A DNA stretch of 45,883 bases from Oscillospiraceae bacterium (lineage in GTDB: Bacteria > Bacillota > Clostridia > Monoglobales > WRAG01), in NCBI GenBank assembly GCA_009780345.1, contig WRAG01000019.1:1-45883 (forward strand), written 5' to 3'. Position 1 is the first letter of the stretch. Each line of letters starts with the position of its first letter. The notes beneath the pieces were generated by a model. It was not told the origin of the DNA. It did no database searches and saw only the letters and a program-made list of their open reading frames with translations. The translations under genes and the position numbers were made by a program. This document shows positions 14,262 through 45,883 of the stretch, piece after piece.

Positions 14262-14593
14262 CGAGAAAGCAAAAATGCTTGCTTGCCGGTAGATTGCGAC
14301 CAATCACACTTCGTCAGCAAACAACTCGTGTTCTTGGGCAATCCTCAAGTACGAGCCGTTTGCGAAAACACGGTAGACTTCACCCAATCGTTCAGCGGCA
14401 AAAAGCACCTTGAACTCTTGGGAAGTCCTCAAGGACGTGGCATTAGCAAAATTAAAATTTTGATGCCACAGCCAGTTTTCGACGGCTCAGCAAATGACAT
14501 TTTTGCGACGACAGCCGGGTAAATACCCCGCGGTTTACCGCGGAATGCGTGCCATAAGGCACGCGGGTCCAGAGCTTGCTCTGGGGTAGATAC
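14262..14593. repeat. intergenic repeat mosaic 1
   Basis: The 356-bp gap before the lyase gene holds no gene. It contains the module CAATCACACTTCGT...AACTCGTGTTCTTGG (14300-14340), a GTGGCATTAGC...GATGCCAC hairpin module (14437-14469), and three adjacent perfect hairpins near 14525-14585 (CCGCGGTTTACCGCGG, GCGTGCCATAAGGCACGC, CCAGAGCTTGCTCTGG). The same modules occur at 19.8, 45.4, 45.6 and 45.8 kb. Because it separates two genes read in the same direction, it may cut or stabilise the transcript. Confidence 0.8.
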
Positions 14594-19472: not shown

Positions 19473-19494
19473 AGAATTTGTCCTTTCTTTCAGA

Positions 19495-20204
19495 GCGAGG
19501 CTCTGGAGCATTTTGCGCGGTCGCGCGCGGCGCGGCAAGGACCAGTCCTTGCCAATCCAGCAAACTTTTGCGCGCCAAAAGTTTGATCAAAAGCGCCTTG
19601 CGGACTCACACGCTCAAAAACCGAGCGCACATGGCGCGGAAGTGAGTGCAAACAACTCGCCCCTGTCAAAACAACATCTCGCGCTTTTAGGCGCGGGTCG
19701 CTCTCGACAGAGAGCAGCGTTCGCACACACTAGTCTTTCCGCGAATGCGGTTCGCTAACTCTTGTCGCCCTCATGCCAGACGGGCACACACGCGGTTTGG
19801 GAGTGGCATCCAAATCTGTATTTGGGATTCGGCTAATGCCACCCCTGTGAAAACTGCCCAAGAACACGAGACGTTTCGTGGCGAAGTGTGATTGGTTGCA
19901 GTTGACCGCTAGTGGGTCGGCGGCATAGTGGCGACGGTTTGGCATAAAGCTCTTAGCAGTTTACTGCTTAGAGATTTAGACCTCCGAAGCGGTTTTGGCG
20001 AGGAGTTTCATCATCTTTTGCCGTCAAAAGTTTTTTGGGGCTTGACAAGGGTGTCAACACACCCTTGTCGTCCTGCGCTGACGAGCGCAAAGTCTGCCGC
20101 CTCAGCGGCAAAGGGGTTTTTAGGGCAAAGCCCTAAAAACCTGCGGCAGCAGCCGCACATATGCGCTTGTCAGCGCAAGACAGCCCCCGCCCGCAAGGCG
20201 CAAA
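19495..20204. repeat. intergenic repeat mosaic 2
   Basis: 710 bp with no credible gene between the URO-D and barrel-protein genes. Modules: palindrome GGCAAGGACCAGTCCTTGCC (19534-19553) followed by a block to about 19597 that recurs almost exactly at 35475-35536; a block at 19672-19757 (GGCGCGGGTCGCTCTCGA and CTTTCCGCGAATGCGG) that recurs at 35608-35695; a GTCGCCCTCATG...GCGACGGTTTG pair (19758-19940) that recurs at 26014-26090; an inverted CAATCACACTTCG module (about 19850-19900); GGGGCTTGACAAGGGTGT (20037-20084) that recurs at 35779 and, inverted, at 25765-25822. The palindrome GTTTTTAGGGC-AAA-GCCCTAAAAAC is at about 20116-20140. Confidence 0.85.
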
Positions 20205-25734: not shown

Positions 25735-26205
25735 CTCAAACTTTTTCAGAGCAAGGCTCTGTAGCATTTGCGCTTGTCAGCGCAGGACGACAAGGGCTTG
25801 TCGAAGCCCTTGTCAAGCCCCGAAAAACTTTTCGAAAAGTTTTATCAAAACATGCGGCGCAAACGCGCTATGGCGCTATTAAAAGCGCGCCGCTTATTGA
25901 GGACTGCGAACAATATCCTCTCAGTTAAGTGCCTACGGCGGCAAAAGCCGCATGCTCGAGTGGAGTACAGTGATATATCTCGCTAATCTTTCCGCGAACG
26001 CGGCTATCCAAACTTTGTCGCCCTCATGTCCAGCGGGGTACCCACGCGGTTTTTGCGTGGGTCGCAGACATAGTAGGCGACGGTTTGATAAAACTTTGCC
26101 GTCAAAGTTTTTCGGGGTTTGTTAAGGGTGTTCGACAACACCCTTGACGGTATTATGCCCTAGGGCATACCCTAATAAGGTTTTAAGCCCGCGCCGCAGG
26201 CGCAA
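25735..26205. repeat. intergenic repeat mosaic 3, between hydB and hydA
   Basis: About 500 bp without a gene inside an operon. Modules shared with the other mosaics: CAGAGCAAGGCTCTG (25748-25762), the inverted CTTGACAAGGGC...CCCTTGTCGTCCTGCGCTGA module (25768-25822), CTAATCTTTCCGCGAACGCGG (25984-26004), TTTGTCGCCCTCATG (26012-26028) with its partner GCGACGGTTTG (26078-26090), and GGTTTGTTAAGGGTGTTCGACAACACCCTTGACGG-type hairpins (26116-26150). Smaller palindromes such as TATGCCCTAGGGCATA (26153-26168) follow. Confidence 0.8.
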
Positions 26206-28738: not shown

Positions 28739-28922
28739 TAAGGCAAGGTAGGGATGGTTAGTCCACCGTTTGAACTTCTTAATAGGGTTCCTGAAAAATG
28801 AGAGCCGTTGCTCGAAATTTTTTGGGAAAGACGAGTCGCCGCCCATAGTGTGAGCTTTTGTCGCTGTTTTTGCGGCGAAACGAGCAACAAGGGCGTGCGG
28901 CGAGGAGAAGGAGGTGGTTCTT
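28739..28922 (+). ncRNA. long structured leader of the small peptide gene
   Basis: About 185 nt without an open frame that matters before a 20-codon gene. It is rich in short inverted matches (for example GAGCCGTTGCTC, GTCGCTGTTTTTGCGGC) and ends in AAGGAGGTGG, an unusually strong ribosome site that could be masked by pairing. Long leaders that delay translation are characteristic of type I toxin mRNAs. Confidence 0.4.
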
Positions 28923-30982: not shown

Positions 30983-33190
30983 TTATGAGTTTAAAAAACG
31001 ATACAACACCGCCGCGATTTCCGCGCGGGTTACAGCTCGGCGCGGGTTGAAATTCCCCGCCTCATCGCCGCGCAAGATGTCTTGAATCGTCAAAACGTTT
31101 ACAGAAGATTTCGCCCAATCGCTGATATAATCCCAATCGGCAAACTCTCTGCCCATTACCAAATCAGGCGGAATTTGACCGCTAAATTGCTGATAACGAT
31201 AAAGTAACGTCGCCATTTGCTCGCGGGTCATCTCCGCCGTCGGCGCGAACAATCCGTCGCCAACTCCGCTTACAATATCATTTGCCGCCGCCCAAGCGAC
31301 AGCGGTAGAATACCACGTTCCCGACGCGACGTCAACAAAATCAGACGCGCCCGCAGACGGCGAACCGGTCATTCGCCATAAAACCGTCACGAACATCGCG
31401 CGAGTGCTTGCCGCGTTCGGCGCGAACTCGGTCGCGGAAACTCCGTTAAGTAGTCCGTTGTCAAACGCATAAGCAACATACCAGTAGAACCAATCATTCT
31501 CATTTACATCAACAAAATTTCCGTCCGGCTCGGTTACGCTCGGCGTACCCGGTCCCGGAGTTGTCGGAGGAGGTGTAAAGACGTTTCCGCCGCCTTGGTT
31601 TCCGCCACTACCGGAGCCGCCGCCACCGCCGCCCGGCCAAGTTCCGCTTCCGCCGAGGTTTGGCAATTGATTCGGTTGCAGCGCGAAATACCAAACCAAA
31701 AGGTCGCCGTCTCGAAGCTCTACCGCCGCCGATGAAACGTTAGGAACAGTCCATTGCGTGGTGTTGCGCGCTTGAATCGCGAACTTCCAGCCGCTTTGCG
31801 GGCCTTGCGCGCCGTTCCAAAGTCCCGCAATCGAGGTTACAAACAAAGTGTCGTCAGAACCGGTGGTTTGCAAAGCCAAACCTGCTCGTCTAAGCAAGCT
31901 GTACGCAGTCTCGTTTGCCGCGATACTAAACGATCTGTCCGCAAGCCTGCGATTTTGATGGTCTATAACAATAATGCTTGCCGTACGAATGGGCGGAGTT
32001 GTTCCGCCGCCATTTCCGCCGTTTCCGTTACCGTTTTCGTCGTCATAAATCGGAATTTCAACCGTCGGTGGTGTTCTCGGATTGTCAACGCCTAAATTCG
32101 AAAAAACACTGGTTCCCAATCCAATAGAAACTAATCCAAGAAATCCGTCTCGCGTCGCCAAAGCATTTGAAGCCATGCCTGTTCCCCAATCCGCGCCGAA
32201 CGAACCGTCGTCCATCATAAAACTCATAAGCGAATGAACCGGAGTCGCGTAAACATCATCGTCTACCTGCCAATCTTCAAGTATATCAAAACCTGCTGCC
32301 GCCAACGCAAGCATTACTACGCCTGTTGAGTTTGCATTCGCCTCAATTGGCCCGAATTCTTCCGGTTGGTTCGGATTCCACGGAAATCCGCCGCATTCCA
32401 ACTGCGCGTCACGCAGATATTGCACTATCTTCGTAAAAGCTGCTTCTAGGCATATAGAAGGACTAAATCCCATTTGAAACGCCAAAAAAACCATAGCGGT
32501 AGAGTCAACATCTTCGCCCCAACCTGTTATATTAAATCCGCCGTTGCCCTCTTGTAAATCAAGAATAATGGGTACGAAATGATCATTAAAATTCCACGCG
32601 TCCCAAGTTGAAGCTCTTTGTGAATAAAGTATAAGTAAAATATCCGAAAATGTAAAATCAACGTCCGAATCAACCAAAGCATCTTCAATCTCTGCTATAT
32701 TGTCGGTATCATTTATAAATTCGCCTAATTCTTCAGCAAAATTTCGTCCGTCAAAATTCCACGAATCATATCCCAACGCCGCCATAGCAATAATCTCCCT
32801 TGCCCACACCGAAAGATACGTAACGTCGTCGTCAAACACGCTCGCGTTCGGCAAATCCCCCAACTCAGGCAAGTCAAAATTGCCGTCATCAAAAGCATAA
32901 CCTATCGTCGCAAGCGCGACAAGTTCCCACATAACACTAGGGTCGCCGTGCAGGTCGGATAAATCCGTTCTGTTCTCTTCATACCATTCAAGCGTTTGGT
33001 TAATAAGGTCCCAATTGGTAACGACATCGTCGTCGTTGTCGGTTCCTGTTCCGGGGTGCGGCGCACTAACATTGCCGCCTCCGCCGGGTGCGCTTAAATT
33101 CCCACCGCCGCTTGGCGCACCGGCGAGTACGGTCGTCATAGATGTCAGAACCATTGCCAGAACTACCAGTATTGCTAAAATCTTTTTCAT
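30983..33190 (-). CDS. SLH-anchored transcobalamin-like surface protein (alpha-toroid + DUF4430)
   Basis: 735 residues. Signal peptide (1-23); Gly-rich linker with GGGNLSAP and GGGNVSAP (28-44); a helical toroid of prenyltransferase/squalene-cyclase-like repeats (about 60-365; EDVDSTAMVFLAFQMGF, NANSTGVVMLALAAAGFDIL, DGSFGADWGTGMASNALATR); linker; a DUF4430 domain (about 402-505; TAYSLLRRAGL, GPQSGWKFAIQ, LRDGDLLVWYF); Gly/Pro linker; three SLH domains (about 558-735). Toroid followed by DUF4430 is the two-domain plan of transcobalamin and intrinsic factor, which clamp cobalamin between the domains. With the cobalamin-riboswitch-like element in its leader, capture of corrinoids at the cell surface is my best inference. 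AGGAGG lies 7 nt before the ATG. Other ligands remain possible since both folds are widespread. Confidence 0.85.
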   Translation of the reverse strand: MKKILAILVVLAMVLTSMTTVLAGAPSGGGNLSAPGGGGNVSAPHPGTGTDNDDDVVTNWDLINQTLEWYEENRTDLSDLHGDPSVMWELVALATIGYAFDDGNFDLPELGDLPNASVFDDDVTYLSVWAREIIAMAALGYDSWNFDGRNFAEELGEFINDTDNIAEIEDALVDSDVDFTFSDILLILYSQRASTWDAWNFNDHFVPIILDLQEGNGGFNITGWGEDVDSTAMVFLAFQMGFSPSICLEAAFTKIVQYLRDAQLECGGFPWNPNQPEEFGPIEANANSTGVVMLALAAAGFDILEDWQVDDDVYATPVHSLMSFMMDDGSFGADWGTGMASNALATRDGFLGLVSIGLGTSVFSNLGVDNPRTPPTVEIPIYDDENGNGNGGNGGGTTPPIRTASIIVIDHQNRRLADRSFSIAANETAYSLLRRAGLALQTTGSDDTLFVTSIAGLWNGAQGPQSGWKFAIQARNTTQWTVPNVSSAAVELRDGDLLVWYFALQPNQLPNLGGSGTWPGGGGGGSGSGGNQGGGNVFTPPPTTPGPGTPSVTEPDGNFVDVNENDWFYWYVAYAFDNGLLNGVSATEFAPNAASTRAMFVTVLWRMTGSPSAGASDFVDVASGTWYSTAVAWAAANDIVSGVGDGLFAPTAEMTREQMATLLYRYQQFSGQIPPDLVMGREFADWDYISDWAKSSVNVLTIQDILRGDEAGNFNPRRAVTRAEIAAVLYRFLNS

Positions 33191-33233
33191 AAATAATCCT
33201 CCTAAAATCCGTAGTTTGGATTTTTTAATTTTT

Positions 33234-33302
33234 GCGCAATCAAAGGGCTGACTTTCACAGAGGCGGTACCGTGGAGATTTCCACTCGCTTCAATGGTTGC
33301 GC
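33234..33302 (-). promoter_or_regulatory. short cobalamin-riboswitch-like element
   Basis: On the minus strand the outer stem GCGCAA (33302-33297) / TTGCGC (33239-33234) encloses GAAGC, GTGGAAATCTCCAC, then CGGTACCGCCTCTGTGA and AAGTCAG. This follows the conserved order of the cobalamin riboswitch core: GAA, GTG-AAATC, CGGT-CCGCC-CTGT-A, AGTCAG. The P7-P11 extension is missing, and only the first six bases of the B12 box (AGYCAGGAGACCTGCC) match. Downstream, an AAAATCC/GGATTTT hairpin touches AGGAGGATT before the ATG at 33190, so control of translation is likely. Confidence 0.65.
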
Positions 33303-33328
33303 TATGTTAATTTAATATTTATCGAATT

Positions 33329-34089: not shown

Positions 34090-35406
34090 ATGTTTAAATG
34101 TACCGGAAATTGCGCCGAGTGCGGTCGCTGCACCAATTATATCACAGATAACCGAAAATTTCAAGGTGTAACTTCGGGAATTTACCGAAAGTTTACAAAA
34201 AATCCGATTACAAGCAAGCAAAACTGCTATGGAATGGCGGTGGATATTGGAACGACGACCATCGCCGGATATCTTTATAAATTCCCCGAATGCGAGCTTG
34301 TCAGTTCAATTTGCGTACCAAATTCGCAAGTAATACACGGCGCGGACGTGATTTCGCGAATAGAATACGCCAACAACGGCGGTTTAGACAACCTGCGAGA
34401 CAAAGTTTGGGCGCAGATAGACAAAATCACCGCCGCATTTGAAAGTAAAGCCGGCGAAGCGATTGACACTTTCGTAATTACCGGAAATACCGCGATGTTG
34501 CACATTCTCGAAGGGATTGACCCGCGGTCGTTGGCGGTCGCGCCGTTTACGCCGCAAAGTCTCTTTGGGCAGGCAAGCCTGCACCAATCCCGCGTTGTAG
34601 ATGCGCAAACATCTGCCCGCGAGACACGAGAGGTTGCTGGAAAAACCTATCTCCCGCGGTGTATATCATCCTACGTCGGCGCGGATATTACTTGCGGGAT
34701 TTTGGCGAGCGGAATGATGGAAGATAAAGTGTCGTTTCTAGTTGATATCGGGACCAACGGCGAGATGGCTCTGTGGAGCGGCGAGAAATTGGTATGCTGC
34801 GCAACCGCTGCGGGACCGGCGTTTGAGGGCGCGGGAATCGCCGCCGGCTGCCCTGCCGTAAGCGGAGCGATTAACAAAGTTTGCGTAAGTAACGGCGAAA
34901 TTTCATACACAACCATAGATGATGAAACGCCGATGGGAATTTGCGGAACGGGAATTATCGACGTAATCGCTTGTATGCTTGCATTAGGAGTGATTGACGA
35001 AACCGGATATTTGGAAGATGATTTTCAAATCGGCGACAGTGGGATTTTTATAACGCCGAACGATATTCGCCAGGTGCAGTTGGCGAAATCCGCGATTCGC
35101 GCGGGAATTGACACTTTGCTGAACGAGCGGGGCGTTACGGTTGACGATGTGGAAAATTTCTACATCGCCGGCGGGTTTGGGAACTATATCGACAAGCAGA
35201 GTTGCGCTAAAATCGGGCTGATTCCGAGCGAGATTTTGGATAAGGTAGTTGTAATCGGCAATTCGGCGGGAATCGGCGCGGGAATGATTCTGCAAAGCCG
35301 CGCGTGTTTGGAAGAATCGGAGCGAATCGGCGAAATGGCGGAAACGGTTGATTTATCGACCAGTTCGTACTTTATGGAGAAGTATGTGGAGCATATGATG
35401 TTTTAG
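34090..35406 (+). CDS. RACo-type ASKHA protein (reductive activator of corrinoid proteins family)
   Basis: 438 residues from the ATG at 34090 (GGAGAG 7 nt upstream). A short N-terminal cysteine group (C4-x3-C8-x2-C11-x2-C14) replaces the [2Fe-2S] ferredoxin domain of full RACo. The rest is the DUF4445 actin-like ATPase: GMAVDIGTTTIAGYLY (phosphate 1), VITGNTAMLHILEGIDP, SYVGADITCGIL, FLVDIGTNGEMALW (phosphate 2), AGPAFEGAGIAAG, and FYIAGGFGNYIDKQSCAKIG. These proteins spend ATP to reduce Co(II) corrinoids to the active Co(I) form for methyltransferases. About 20 residues (about 160-182) between FTPQSLFG and YLPRC appear to be an insertion encoded by a palindromic repeat also present in uvrA. 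No corrinoid protein gene is in the window. Confidence 0.8.
   Translation: MFKCTGNCAECGRCTNYITDNRKFQGVTSGIYRKFTKNPITSKQNCYGMAVDIGTTTIAGYLYKFPECELVSSICVPNSQVIHGADVISRIEYANNGGLDNLRDKVWAQIDKITAAFESKAGEAIDTFVITGNTAMLHILEGIDPRSLAVAPFTPQSLFGQASLHQSRVVDAQTSARETREVAGKTYLPRCISSYVGADITCGILASGMMEDKVSFLVDIGTNGEMALWSGEKLVCCATAAGPAFEGAGIAAGCPAVSGAINKVCVSNGEISYTTIDDETPMGICGTGIIDVIACMLALGVIDETGYLEDDFQIGDSGIFITPNDIRQVQLAKSAIRAGIDTLLNERGVTVDDVENFYIAGGFGNYIDKQSCAKIGLIPSEILDKVVVIGNSAGIGAGMILQSRACLEESERIGEMAETVDLSTSSYFMEKYVEHMMF
34569..34636 (+). repeat. small palindromic element inserted in frame in the ASKHA gene
   Basis: Starts with GCAGGC-AA-GCCTGC (34569-34582), then ACCAATCCCGCG, a small AGATG/CATCT hairpin (34600-34615), and ends with CCCGCGAGACACGAGAG. 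Start and end match the element in uvrA (42933-43013); the middle differs. Confidence 0.6.
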
Positions 35407-35880
35407 GGCTTTGCTCTAAGACCCTTTTTTGCCGCTGAGGCGGCGAGGCTTTTGCGCGTGCGCGCGCGGCGCGACAAGGACCAGTCCTTGTCAATCCAGC
35501 AAACTTTTGCGCGCCAAAAGTTTGATCAAAAGCGCCGCGCTCACGCACGTGCTTAAAAACCAAGCACACGTGGCGCGGAAGCTAGTGCAAACATAGCACA
35601 CTAACCAAAAACATCTCGCGCTTTTAGGCGCGGGTCGCTCTCGAACAGAAGCGGCGTTCGTACATACTAATCTTTCCGCGAATGCGGTTAGCTAACCCAA
35701 ATAGCGGCACGTTTTTGATAGCGCGAAAGCGCGTTTGTGCCGCAAAGTTTTACTAAATTTTTTGTGAAAAAATTTTTGGGGCTTGACAAGGGTTTCAATA
35801 AACCCTTGTCGTCCTGCGCTGACAAGCGCAAGTGCTACAGCGACTTCGCTGAAAAGTTTTTAGTCCGCGCCCTCGGACGC
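35407..35880. repeat. intergenic repeat mosaic 4
   Basis: About 480 bp with no gene. Modules: TTTGCCGCTGAGGCGGCGAG (35429-35447, also at 45352-45371); AAGGACCAGTCCTTG plus the AAACTTTTGCGCGCCAAAAG block (35475-35536, near-identical to 19541-19597); CTCGCGCTTTTAGGCGCGGG to CTTTCCGCGAATGCGGTTAG (35614-35695, as at 19676-19757); and GGGGCTTGACAAGGGTTT...AAACCCTTGTCGTCCTGCGC (35778-35820, as at 20037 and, inverted, 25768). Confidence 0.85.
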
Positions 35881-45204: not shown

Positions 45205-45883
45205 GACTTTGCCCTACGAACCCTCCGCGGGAGCGGTTGCGCCCTGCGGGCGCGGGGTTAAGGCGCGGTGCGACTTAGACCGTTCGCCGCGAATGCGGCG
45301 GATTTTGCGCCCAACGGGCGCGGGTTTTTAGGGCTTTGCCCTAAAAACCCATTTTGCCGCTGAGGCGGCGAGCTTATGTCCTGCCGGACGGGCGATAAGG
45401 GCTCTGCCCTTACGGTAGGTTTCAACCAATCATACTTCGTCAAAAAACAACTCGTGTTCTTTGGCGGTTTCCCGACTCGCTTCGCTTACTGGATAATTCG
45501 ACTAAGCTTTTCAAAAAACGAAAAGCAAGTCTCATTTATCACAGGGGTGGCATTGGCCGAATCCCAAAAACGGATTCGGAAGCCACTCCCAACCCCGCGA
45601 TTTGTGCCGCGAGCGGCGACGAAAAAAGCATTGGTTAGCGAACCGCATTCGCGGTAAATGAGACTTAGCTTGCGCATTTTGTATGCTGTAGTCGAATTAT
45701 CCAGTAAGCGTAAGCGAGTCGGGAAAGACTAGCGAGATAGAACGCCGCGCTCCGTTCGAGAGCGACCCGCGAGCCGTCAACCATATCCAATCACACTTCG
45801 TTAAAAAACAACTCGTGTTCTTGGATGGTTTTGACAGGGGTGGCATTAGCCGGATTAAAAAACCAATCCGGATGCCACTCCCT
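45205..45883. repeat. intergenic repeat mosaic 5 (to the window edge)
   Basis: No gene seen. Modules: GTTTTTAGGGC-TTTG-CCCTAAAAAC (45325-45348); TTTGCCGCTGAGGCGGCGAG (45353-45372); CAATCATACTTCGTC...AACTCGTGTTCTTTGG (45427-45463) and CAATCACACTTCGTT...AACTCGTGTTCTTGG (45788-45824); GGGGTGGCATTGGCC...GAAGCCACTCCC (45545-45589) and GGGGTGGCATTAGCCGGATT...GGATGCCACTCCC (45838-45882); the inverted module with CTTTCC and GGGTCGCTCTCGAAC (45722-45770). Confidence 0.85.
45471..45723. repeat. 253-bp element with nested inverted repeats
   Basis: Outer arms 45471-45502 (begins CCCGACTCGC, ends ATAATTCGAC) and 45691-45723 match as reverse complements with a single 1-nt indel. Inner arms AAGCAAGTCTCATTTA (45523-45538) and 45655-45671 also pair with one indel. 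A GTGGCATTGGCC hairpin module sits in the middle. Confidence 0.75.

Follow-up and report, generated by a model that had tools for sequence, protein, structure and literature searches.

Nested families of small non-coding hairpin elements fill intergenic DNA in an Oscillospiraceae genome

The intergenic regions at 14.3, 19.5, 25.7, 35.4 and 45.2 kb of a 45,883-nucleotide contig from an Oscillospiraceae bacterium appear as mosaics of shared palindromic modules, raising the question of what these modules are and what could have spread them. The window analysed here is this entire contig, C19 of a 2.05 Mb draft genome in 59 contigs. The five loci lie where the first-pass annotation had placed them, and modules are common to them in both orientations (direct families D1–D9, inverted pairs I1–I9). 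The near-identities it had pointed out were recovered: positions 19541–19597 and 35480–35536 differ by 1 mismatch in 57, and 19676–19757 is 91% identical to 35614–35695 over 82 aligned columns. Its count of five is accurate for the loci listed but misses a sixth, a diverged family g element at 28784–28896. Likewise, its estimate of at least seven modules was right in that modules are shared but too low in number, and several of the modules are discrete elements nested in others. The features of the window are collected in Table 1. Apart from the repeats, a cobalamin riboswitch (50.4 bits; 33191–33319, minus strand) is found upstream of the gene at 30983–33190, and URO-D and RACo-like genes close to it suggest corrinoid methyl metabolism.

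Table 1. Repeat elements and their parts in the window (a slash within a sequence or between positions marks an insertion point)
Position	Strand	Feature	Evidence or remark
14287–14370	+	Family c element, left piece of outer copy (HMM positions 1–84); last part at 14474–14491	Profile match, sequence
14371–14473	+	Second, complete family c element in apical loop of the outer copy's second hairpin (AAAACA/AGTTTT), without duplication	
19491–19534	.	Border palindromes CAGAGCGAGGCTCTG and TTGCGCGGTCGCGCGCGGCGCG	
19535–19759	+	Core element, left half, with end hairpin GCAAGGACCAGTCCTTGC	Most widely repeated block; 57 copies in sample
19799–19909	+	Family b two-hairpin element after GGTTT	107.9 bits
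19941–20012	+	Family e two-hairpin element after GGTTT	
20026–20090	-	Core right end, hairpin GACAAGGGTGT...ACACCCTTGTC	
20094–20177	.	Array of short border palindromes (GCCGCCTCAGCGGC, TTTTAGGGCAAAGCCCTAAAA, TGCGCTTGTCAGCGCA)	
25747–25784	.	Border palindromes CAGAGCAAGGCTCTG and TGCGCTTGTCAGCGCA	
25788–26149	.	Core element with hairpin ends on both sides; family a site AATCTTT/CCGCG empty	
28784–28896	-	Diverged family g element, sixth locus	E = 7.8e-15, HMM positions 11–119
35401–35473	.	Border palindromes abutting the upstream gene's stop codon	
35474–35697	+	Core left half, 87–88% identical to 19535–19759; family a site empty at 35675/35676	
35761–35846	-	Core right end and border palindrome	
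45326–45412	.	Border palindromes and core end hairpin GTCCTGCCGGACGGGCGATAAGGGCTCTGCCCTTA	
45413–45592	-	Family b/c element (45413–45470 and 45539–45592), split by a family a element in its linker	
45471–45538	+	Family a element within the b/c linker, after GGCGGTTT	
45655–45723	-	Second family a element, at recurrent core site AGTCTTT/CCGCG (AATCTTT/CCGCG at most loci)	
45773–45882	-	Family b element at contig end	

Used as a query, the 19.5 kb locus found 93 places in the genome it comes from (best E = 1.7e-88), far above chance. In a sample of 745 kb of this genome (36%), read as stretches, the five loci together gave approximately 100 merged places amounting to 39.8 kb, or 5.3% of the DNA. 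Small non-coding hairpin elements belonging to several families and situated between genes make up about one-twentieth of the genome. Called genes overlap 2.5% of the repeat length, versus 78% expected, and the repeats occupy 73 spacers (62 co-directional, 7 convergent and 4 divergent), taking up roughly three-quarters of them. No comparable DNA match was found in 40 relatives from the same order; the relatives searched include no further member of the host's taxonomic family. An assembly artefact is unlikely: copies occur in many contigs and in different gene neighbourhoods, and copies identical to the last base are present at contig ends. Assemblies break at repeats, and two sets of identical family b copies, 111 bp in length, lie at such breaks (C14, C31, C38, C45 and C57; C2, C17 and C43). 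The flanks of these identical copies differ, which suggests recent activity.

The inserts were identified by all-against-all comparison of the loci, in which one locus is continuous where another carries an insert of fixed size. At least seven families were found: a (68–72 bp), b (~110 bp), c (~103 bp), d (~93 bp), e (~72 bp), f (~71 bp) and g (~119 bp). Their ends are sharp, with the flanking sequence changing at once, and comparison with paralogous empty sites gives inserts of recurring size with a junction difference of mostly 0–1 bp; the family a site that is filled at 45655–45723, for example, is the one left empty at 35675/35676. Family a is seen within the linker of b, b within c, d within c and within g, and c within a loop of another c. 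Excision of full copies of families a–g in silico, in three rounds (83, 6 and 1 copies), lowered the number of nested events from 73 to 17, the residue being mostly short GC-rich palindromes arrayed at the borders, and left a core of ~260–360 bp whose hairpin ends are of three interchangeable kinds. Judged from sequence comparison, the mosaic can thus be largely resolved into families a–g, with clean insertions among themselves and into a palindromic core of about 300 bp. What the first-pass annotation read as combinatorial assembly is, according to the paralogous empty sites, largely the product of sequential nested insertion of separate small elements. Many insertions at the same site may represent a single event that was copied along with the host core.

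The repeats do not correspond to one simple insertion sequence: several families are present, a single element with its own transposase was not found, and interrupted copies in the own-genome sample contain other small elements and never a gene. Autonomous, gene-carrying copies were likewise absent from this sample and from the loci fetched from Sporomusa and CTSoil genomes. Family g begins with CGTC and occurs ~17 times in the 745 kb without a clear target, and one copy is split by a family d element (C17:8488–8703). Its assignment as a CGTC-tagged REP was considered and rejected; the tag is present, but the lengths of stem and loop are not those of that REP family.

Most insertions directly follow TT, and the junctions point to a short, T-rich target for some of the families. 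The frequency of T at positions -2 and -1 before the insert is 91 and 77% for family b, 100 and 100% for e, and 81 and 81% for a. For families c and d the TT is not directly at the junction, and family c inserts in the 3′ arm of core-end hairpins at CTTG/TCAA-like sites and also in loops. Target duplication is mostly absent from a–d junctions, while inserts of e, f and g appear to replace ~3–8 bp relative to the empty paralogue (~8 bp are lacking for e). Bacterial MITEs usually duplicate their target, whereas families a–e are without such duplication. Insertion points are unpaired at a fraction of 0.48, versus 0.39 in their surroundings (p = 0.011), a modest enrichment. Targeting of loops or linkers was considered and found to have modest support; family c also enters stems.

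Aligned copies of b and c share one common structure of two bulged hairpins, in which 26 of the 32 pairs have changed on both sides. The covariation amounts to 0.636, against 0.069–0.096 when the partners are slid, and 98.3% of cells are paired. The covariance analysis suggested in the first-pass annotation as a check for RNA folding is therefore strongly positive for b/c, although the rarity of G-T wobble indicates hairpins of DNA rather than RNA. In the b/c elements G-T and A-C account for 1.6% and 0.7% of pairs, compared with 9.3% and 0 in a small control of the genome's own tRNAs (11 tRNAs, 237 pairs; p = 7e-8). Block A has the same orientation as the genes in 22 cases and the opposite in 23, and so shows no strand bias. 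The scarcity of G-T pairs and the random orientation relative to genes both point to a hairpin that matters as DNA and not as RNA, whether it is selected or copied in that form. Structured RNAs with a function in 3′ UTRs, as terminators or in regulation, kept by selection and spread by recombination, would account for the strong covarying structure and for the intergenic placement in spacers that are mostly co-directional and seldom divergent. This is nevertheless very unlikely given the near absence of G-T pairs relative to tRNAs, the even orientation of block A, the clean nesting of one family in another, and the failure of the elements to match any known RNA among the Rfam covariance models.

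More locally, families a–e have subterminal hairpins at both ends, and no long terminal inverted repeat is found in the aligned copies. Families a and d share a common right hairpin (TTCGRCTA-stem-AAGTCTCA) and differ jointly 5′ of this hairpin and in the terminal bases (ATTTA and AAATG, respectively), as would be expected of guide and cleavage sites, in a comparison of two families made by eye. Read from the c side, the long hairpin of b/c elements has GTAG (GTCA in b) at its foot; at the other end GGAG or GCAG is found at the hairpin foot in most aligned copies. The GT[AG]G tag is present in c and in many relatives from the class, and families a, d and e are without it.

The elements are not confined to this genome. 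Exact matches to family a were found in three Sporomusa species and in the soil MAGs CTSoil_079 and CTSoil_080, where it forms a 125 bp two-hairpin unit with a left flank of mostly TTA or TTG, a fixed end CATTTA, and end-to-end junctions in tandem copies. A small hairpin element, CATCTCATTAACAACCTG...GGCTTACTTA, is nested in the first hairpin of the Sporomusa-type family a (CTSoil_079; L088, L097, L129), so nesting occurs there too. One family-a-like match was seen in a Fibrobacteraceae MAG (L113), for which contamination or transfer is possible. Plasmid, phage and viral collections returned no match to family a. In the own genome the b/c model identifies at least 76 copies. Of 390 other genomes from the class, 27 contain matches, commonly more than one, with scores of up to 79.7 bits; a weak R1 match in G008 was looked at but given no weight. 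At 16 inspected b/c loci the element itself was unmatched in Rfam in all cases, the matches being a neighbouring L10 leader and a group II intron. In the class relative G307 (L206 1501–1605), a b/c-like element is situated just after an L10 leader and before an rplJ-like gene. At the level of sequence, these comparisons establish discrete families, clean nesting, a mostly duplication-free junction, a TT preference, covarying hairpins and spread both within and between genomes.

No enzyme that mobilises the elements was found. A single Y1 transposase gene, IS200-like, was found in the own genome (L031, G000:C31:6324-6680); it has an in-frame stop (TAA), its flanks are unrelated, and module-like ends are absent from it. 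TnpB was not found in the own genome, and linkage of the elements to TnpB was rejected. The link to a TnpA-REP enzyme raised in the first-pass annotation was accordingly not borne out by this one broken gene, which is not flanked by modules. RAYT genes were found neither in the own genome, for which the draft state means that absence is not final, nor in the other carriers checked. Three carriers are without any Y1 gene: G273 (8 copies, 99% completeness), G198 and G414. Where class relatives with b/c copies do have Y1 loci, none of those checked bears element ends. An association of Y1 genes with the elements was sought in the own genome, Sporomusa, CTSoil, and the order and class relatives, and was not found, with G025 as the sole exception; there, a single b copy lies ~190 bp away from where the match to a broken IS200 gene ends, outside the stretch common to the two IS copies. 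No IS encoding TnpA or TnpB with ends like those of these elements was found. This absence is not proof, because multi-copy IS may be missing from a draft bin. The enzyme may have been lost, may be absent from the draft assembly, or may be of another kind.

One candidate of another kind is a reverse transcriptase, e.g. from a group II intron, that inserts folded RNA. The own genome encodes, where one of its contigs ends (L131, end of G000:C9), a single RT similar to group II intron maturases, and a group II intron is close to one b/c copy in L222. However, the G-T deficit and the lack of strand bias speak against an RNA stage, and the remaining b/c loci inspected have no intron match in Rfam, making this route highly improbable. 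Upstream of the RT on C9, an open frame ending in GGFDCSG (NlpC/P60-like by eye) stops shortly before the RT gene. Alternatively, palindromes could be shuffled without any dedicated enzyme, with template switching, hairpin-primed copying and gene conversion creating, perfecting and moving the hairpins. Such shuffling would fit the almost perfect Watson-Crick stems on both strands, the many combinations of short border palindromes, and the missing enzyme, including the carriers that have no Y1 gene. It seems unlikely, as the element ends and sizes are precise and recurring, a short target is preferred, and copies are found in unrelated genomes.

We consider it somewhat more probable than otherwise that the loci are piles of non-autonomous, single-strand mobile elements resembling REP/REPIN and PATE sequences, mobilised in trans. 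Each element, of 60–120 bp, consists of two imperfect, bulged hairpins and encodes no gene. The moving form, now or in the past, would be a folded single DNA strand, whose hairpins would be recognised by a trans-acting enzyme; this enzyme would cut the ends and join the element just 3′ of short T-rich target sites, in most cases with no duplication. The chemistry would be that of the HUH (Y1) transposases acting on IS200/IS605 ends and REP sequences. New copies would land in old ones, giving the mosaic look, because the intergenic DNA is already full of palindromes with such targets. Points that weigh against this reading are the lack of an active mobiliser and the carriers without Y1, the c and d junctions with no adjacent TT, the bases apparently replaced by e, f and g, the modest enrichment of unpaired insertion points, the entry of c into stems, and the chance that many same-site insertions were copied with the core. 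It is conceivable, with rather low probability, that a process unlike the known transposases, enzymatic or replicative, moves these class-wide two-hairpin DNA elements and keeps them perfectly paired, with mutual landing sites layering the intergenic DNA.

Non-autonomous, hairpin-ended elements have close counterparts. The likeness to REP and BIME sequences noted in the first-pass annotation is sustained by the extragenic, hairpin-based organisation, the few divergent spacers and the GTAG-like tag of b/c, though not by a TnpA-REP or by simple combinatorial assembly. A GTAG-like tag at the hairpin foot is a hallmark of REP (PMC6006769), and the elements further resemble REP, BIME and REPIN sequences in that their tagged hairpins often form inverted pairs, in many copies and mosaic clusters (PMC3733652, PMC6006769, PMC3116915). 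In contrast, the units here are longer, belong to several unrelated families that are regularly inserted into one another, and are not accompanied by a RAYT. In a narrower form of the trans-mobilised reading, b/c would be true GTAG REP/REPIN sequences whose RAYT was lost from the lineage or is encoded in a missing part of the assembly. It is supported by the GTAG-like tag, which c and many class relatives carry at the base of their second hairpin, and by the inverted hairpin pair in many extragenic copies; with no RAYT in the genome, GTCA instead of GTAG in subfamily b, and tagless a, d and e, we regard it as possible but doubtful. By virtue of hairpin-foot tags, end palindromes, absent duplication and nesting, b/c appears to work like a REPIN and a/d like PATEs, yet filing the elements as members of either group fails on the enzyme link.

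Bacterial MITEs such as Bcr1, NEMIS, RUP and ERIC (PMC3733652) are similarly intergenic, folded and without coding capacity, at 70–300 bp, but carry terminal inverted repeats of IS elements, which are lacking in a–e. The palindromic repeats of Volvox organelles and the mitochondrial double-hairpin elements are also short, fill intergenic DNA and insert into one another, and no mobilising enzyme is known for them either; those, however, belong to organelle genomes, and no common sequence or fixed element ends have been shown for them (PMC2670323).

Ever since REP- and PATE-like hairpins were described, the question has been how they spread when no transposase is obvious. The present genome and the carriers lacking Y1 make it testable, through precisely defined ends, unoccupied sites, recent identical copies and a covariance model that finds relatives class-wide, and the layering of the elements provides a relative clock of insertions.

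The PATEs of Haloquadratum walsbyi have near-terminal palindromes, no terminal inverted repeats and no target duplication, and its SMR-A repeats of ~110 bp insert into palindromes of other elements; its IS200-type transposases are mostly broken, and SMR mobilisation was termed enigmatic (PMC3119063). The elements described here share with PATEs and SMR-A their non-coding nature, end palindromes, lack of duplication and mutual nesting, together with a broken IS200-type transposase (PMC3119063). The Haloquadratum PATEs clearly derive from resident IS605-type elements (PMC3119063), whereas a parent IS was not found here. Furthermore, those elements are archaeal and the present ones bacterial, with nesting three rounds deep that involves most of the families. 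The kind of element is thus already known, being REP/PATE-like, and its striking feature in this genome is the hyper-nesting.
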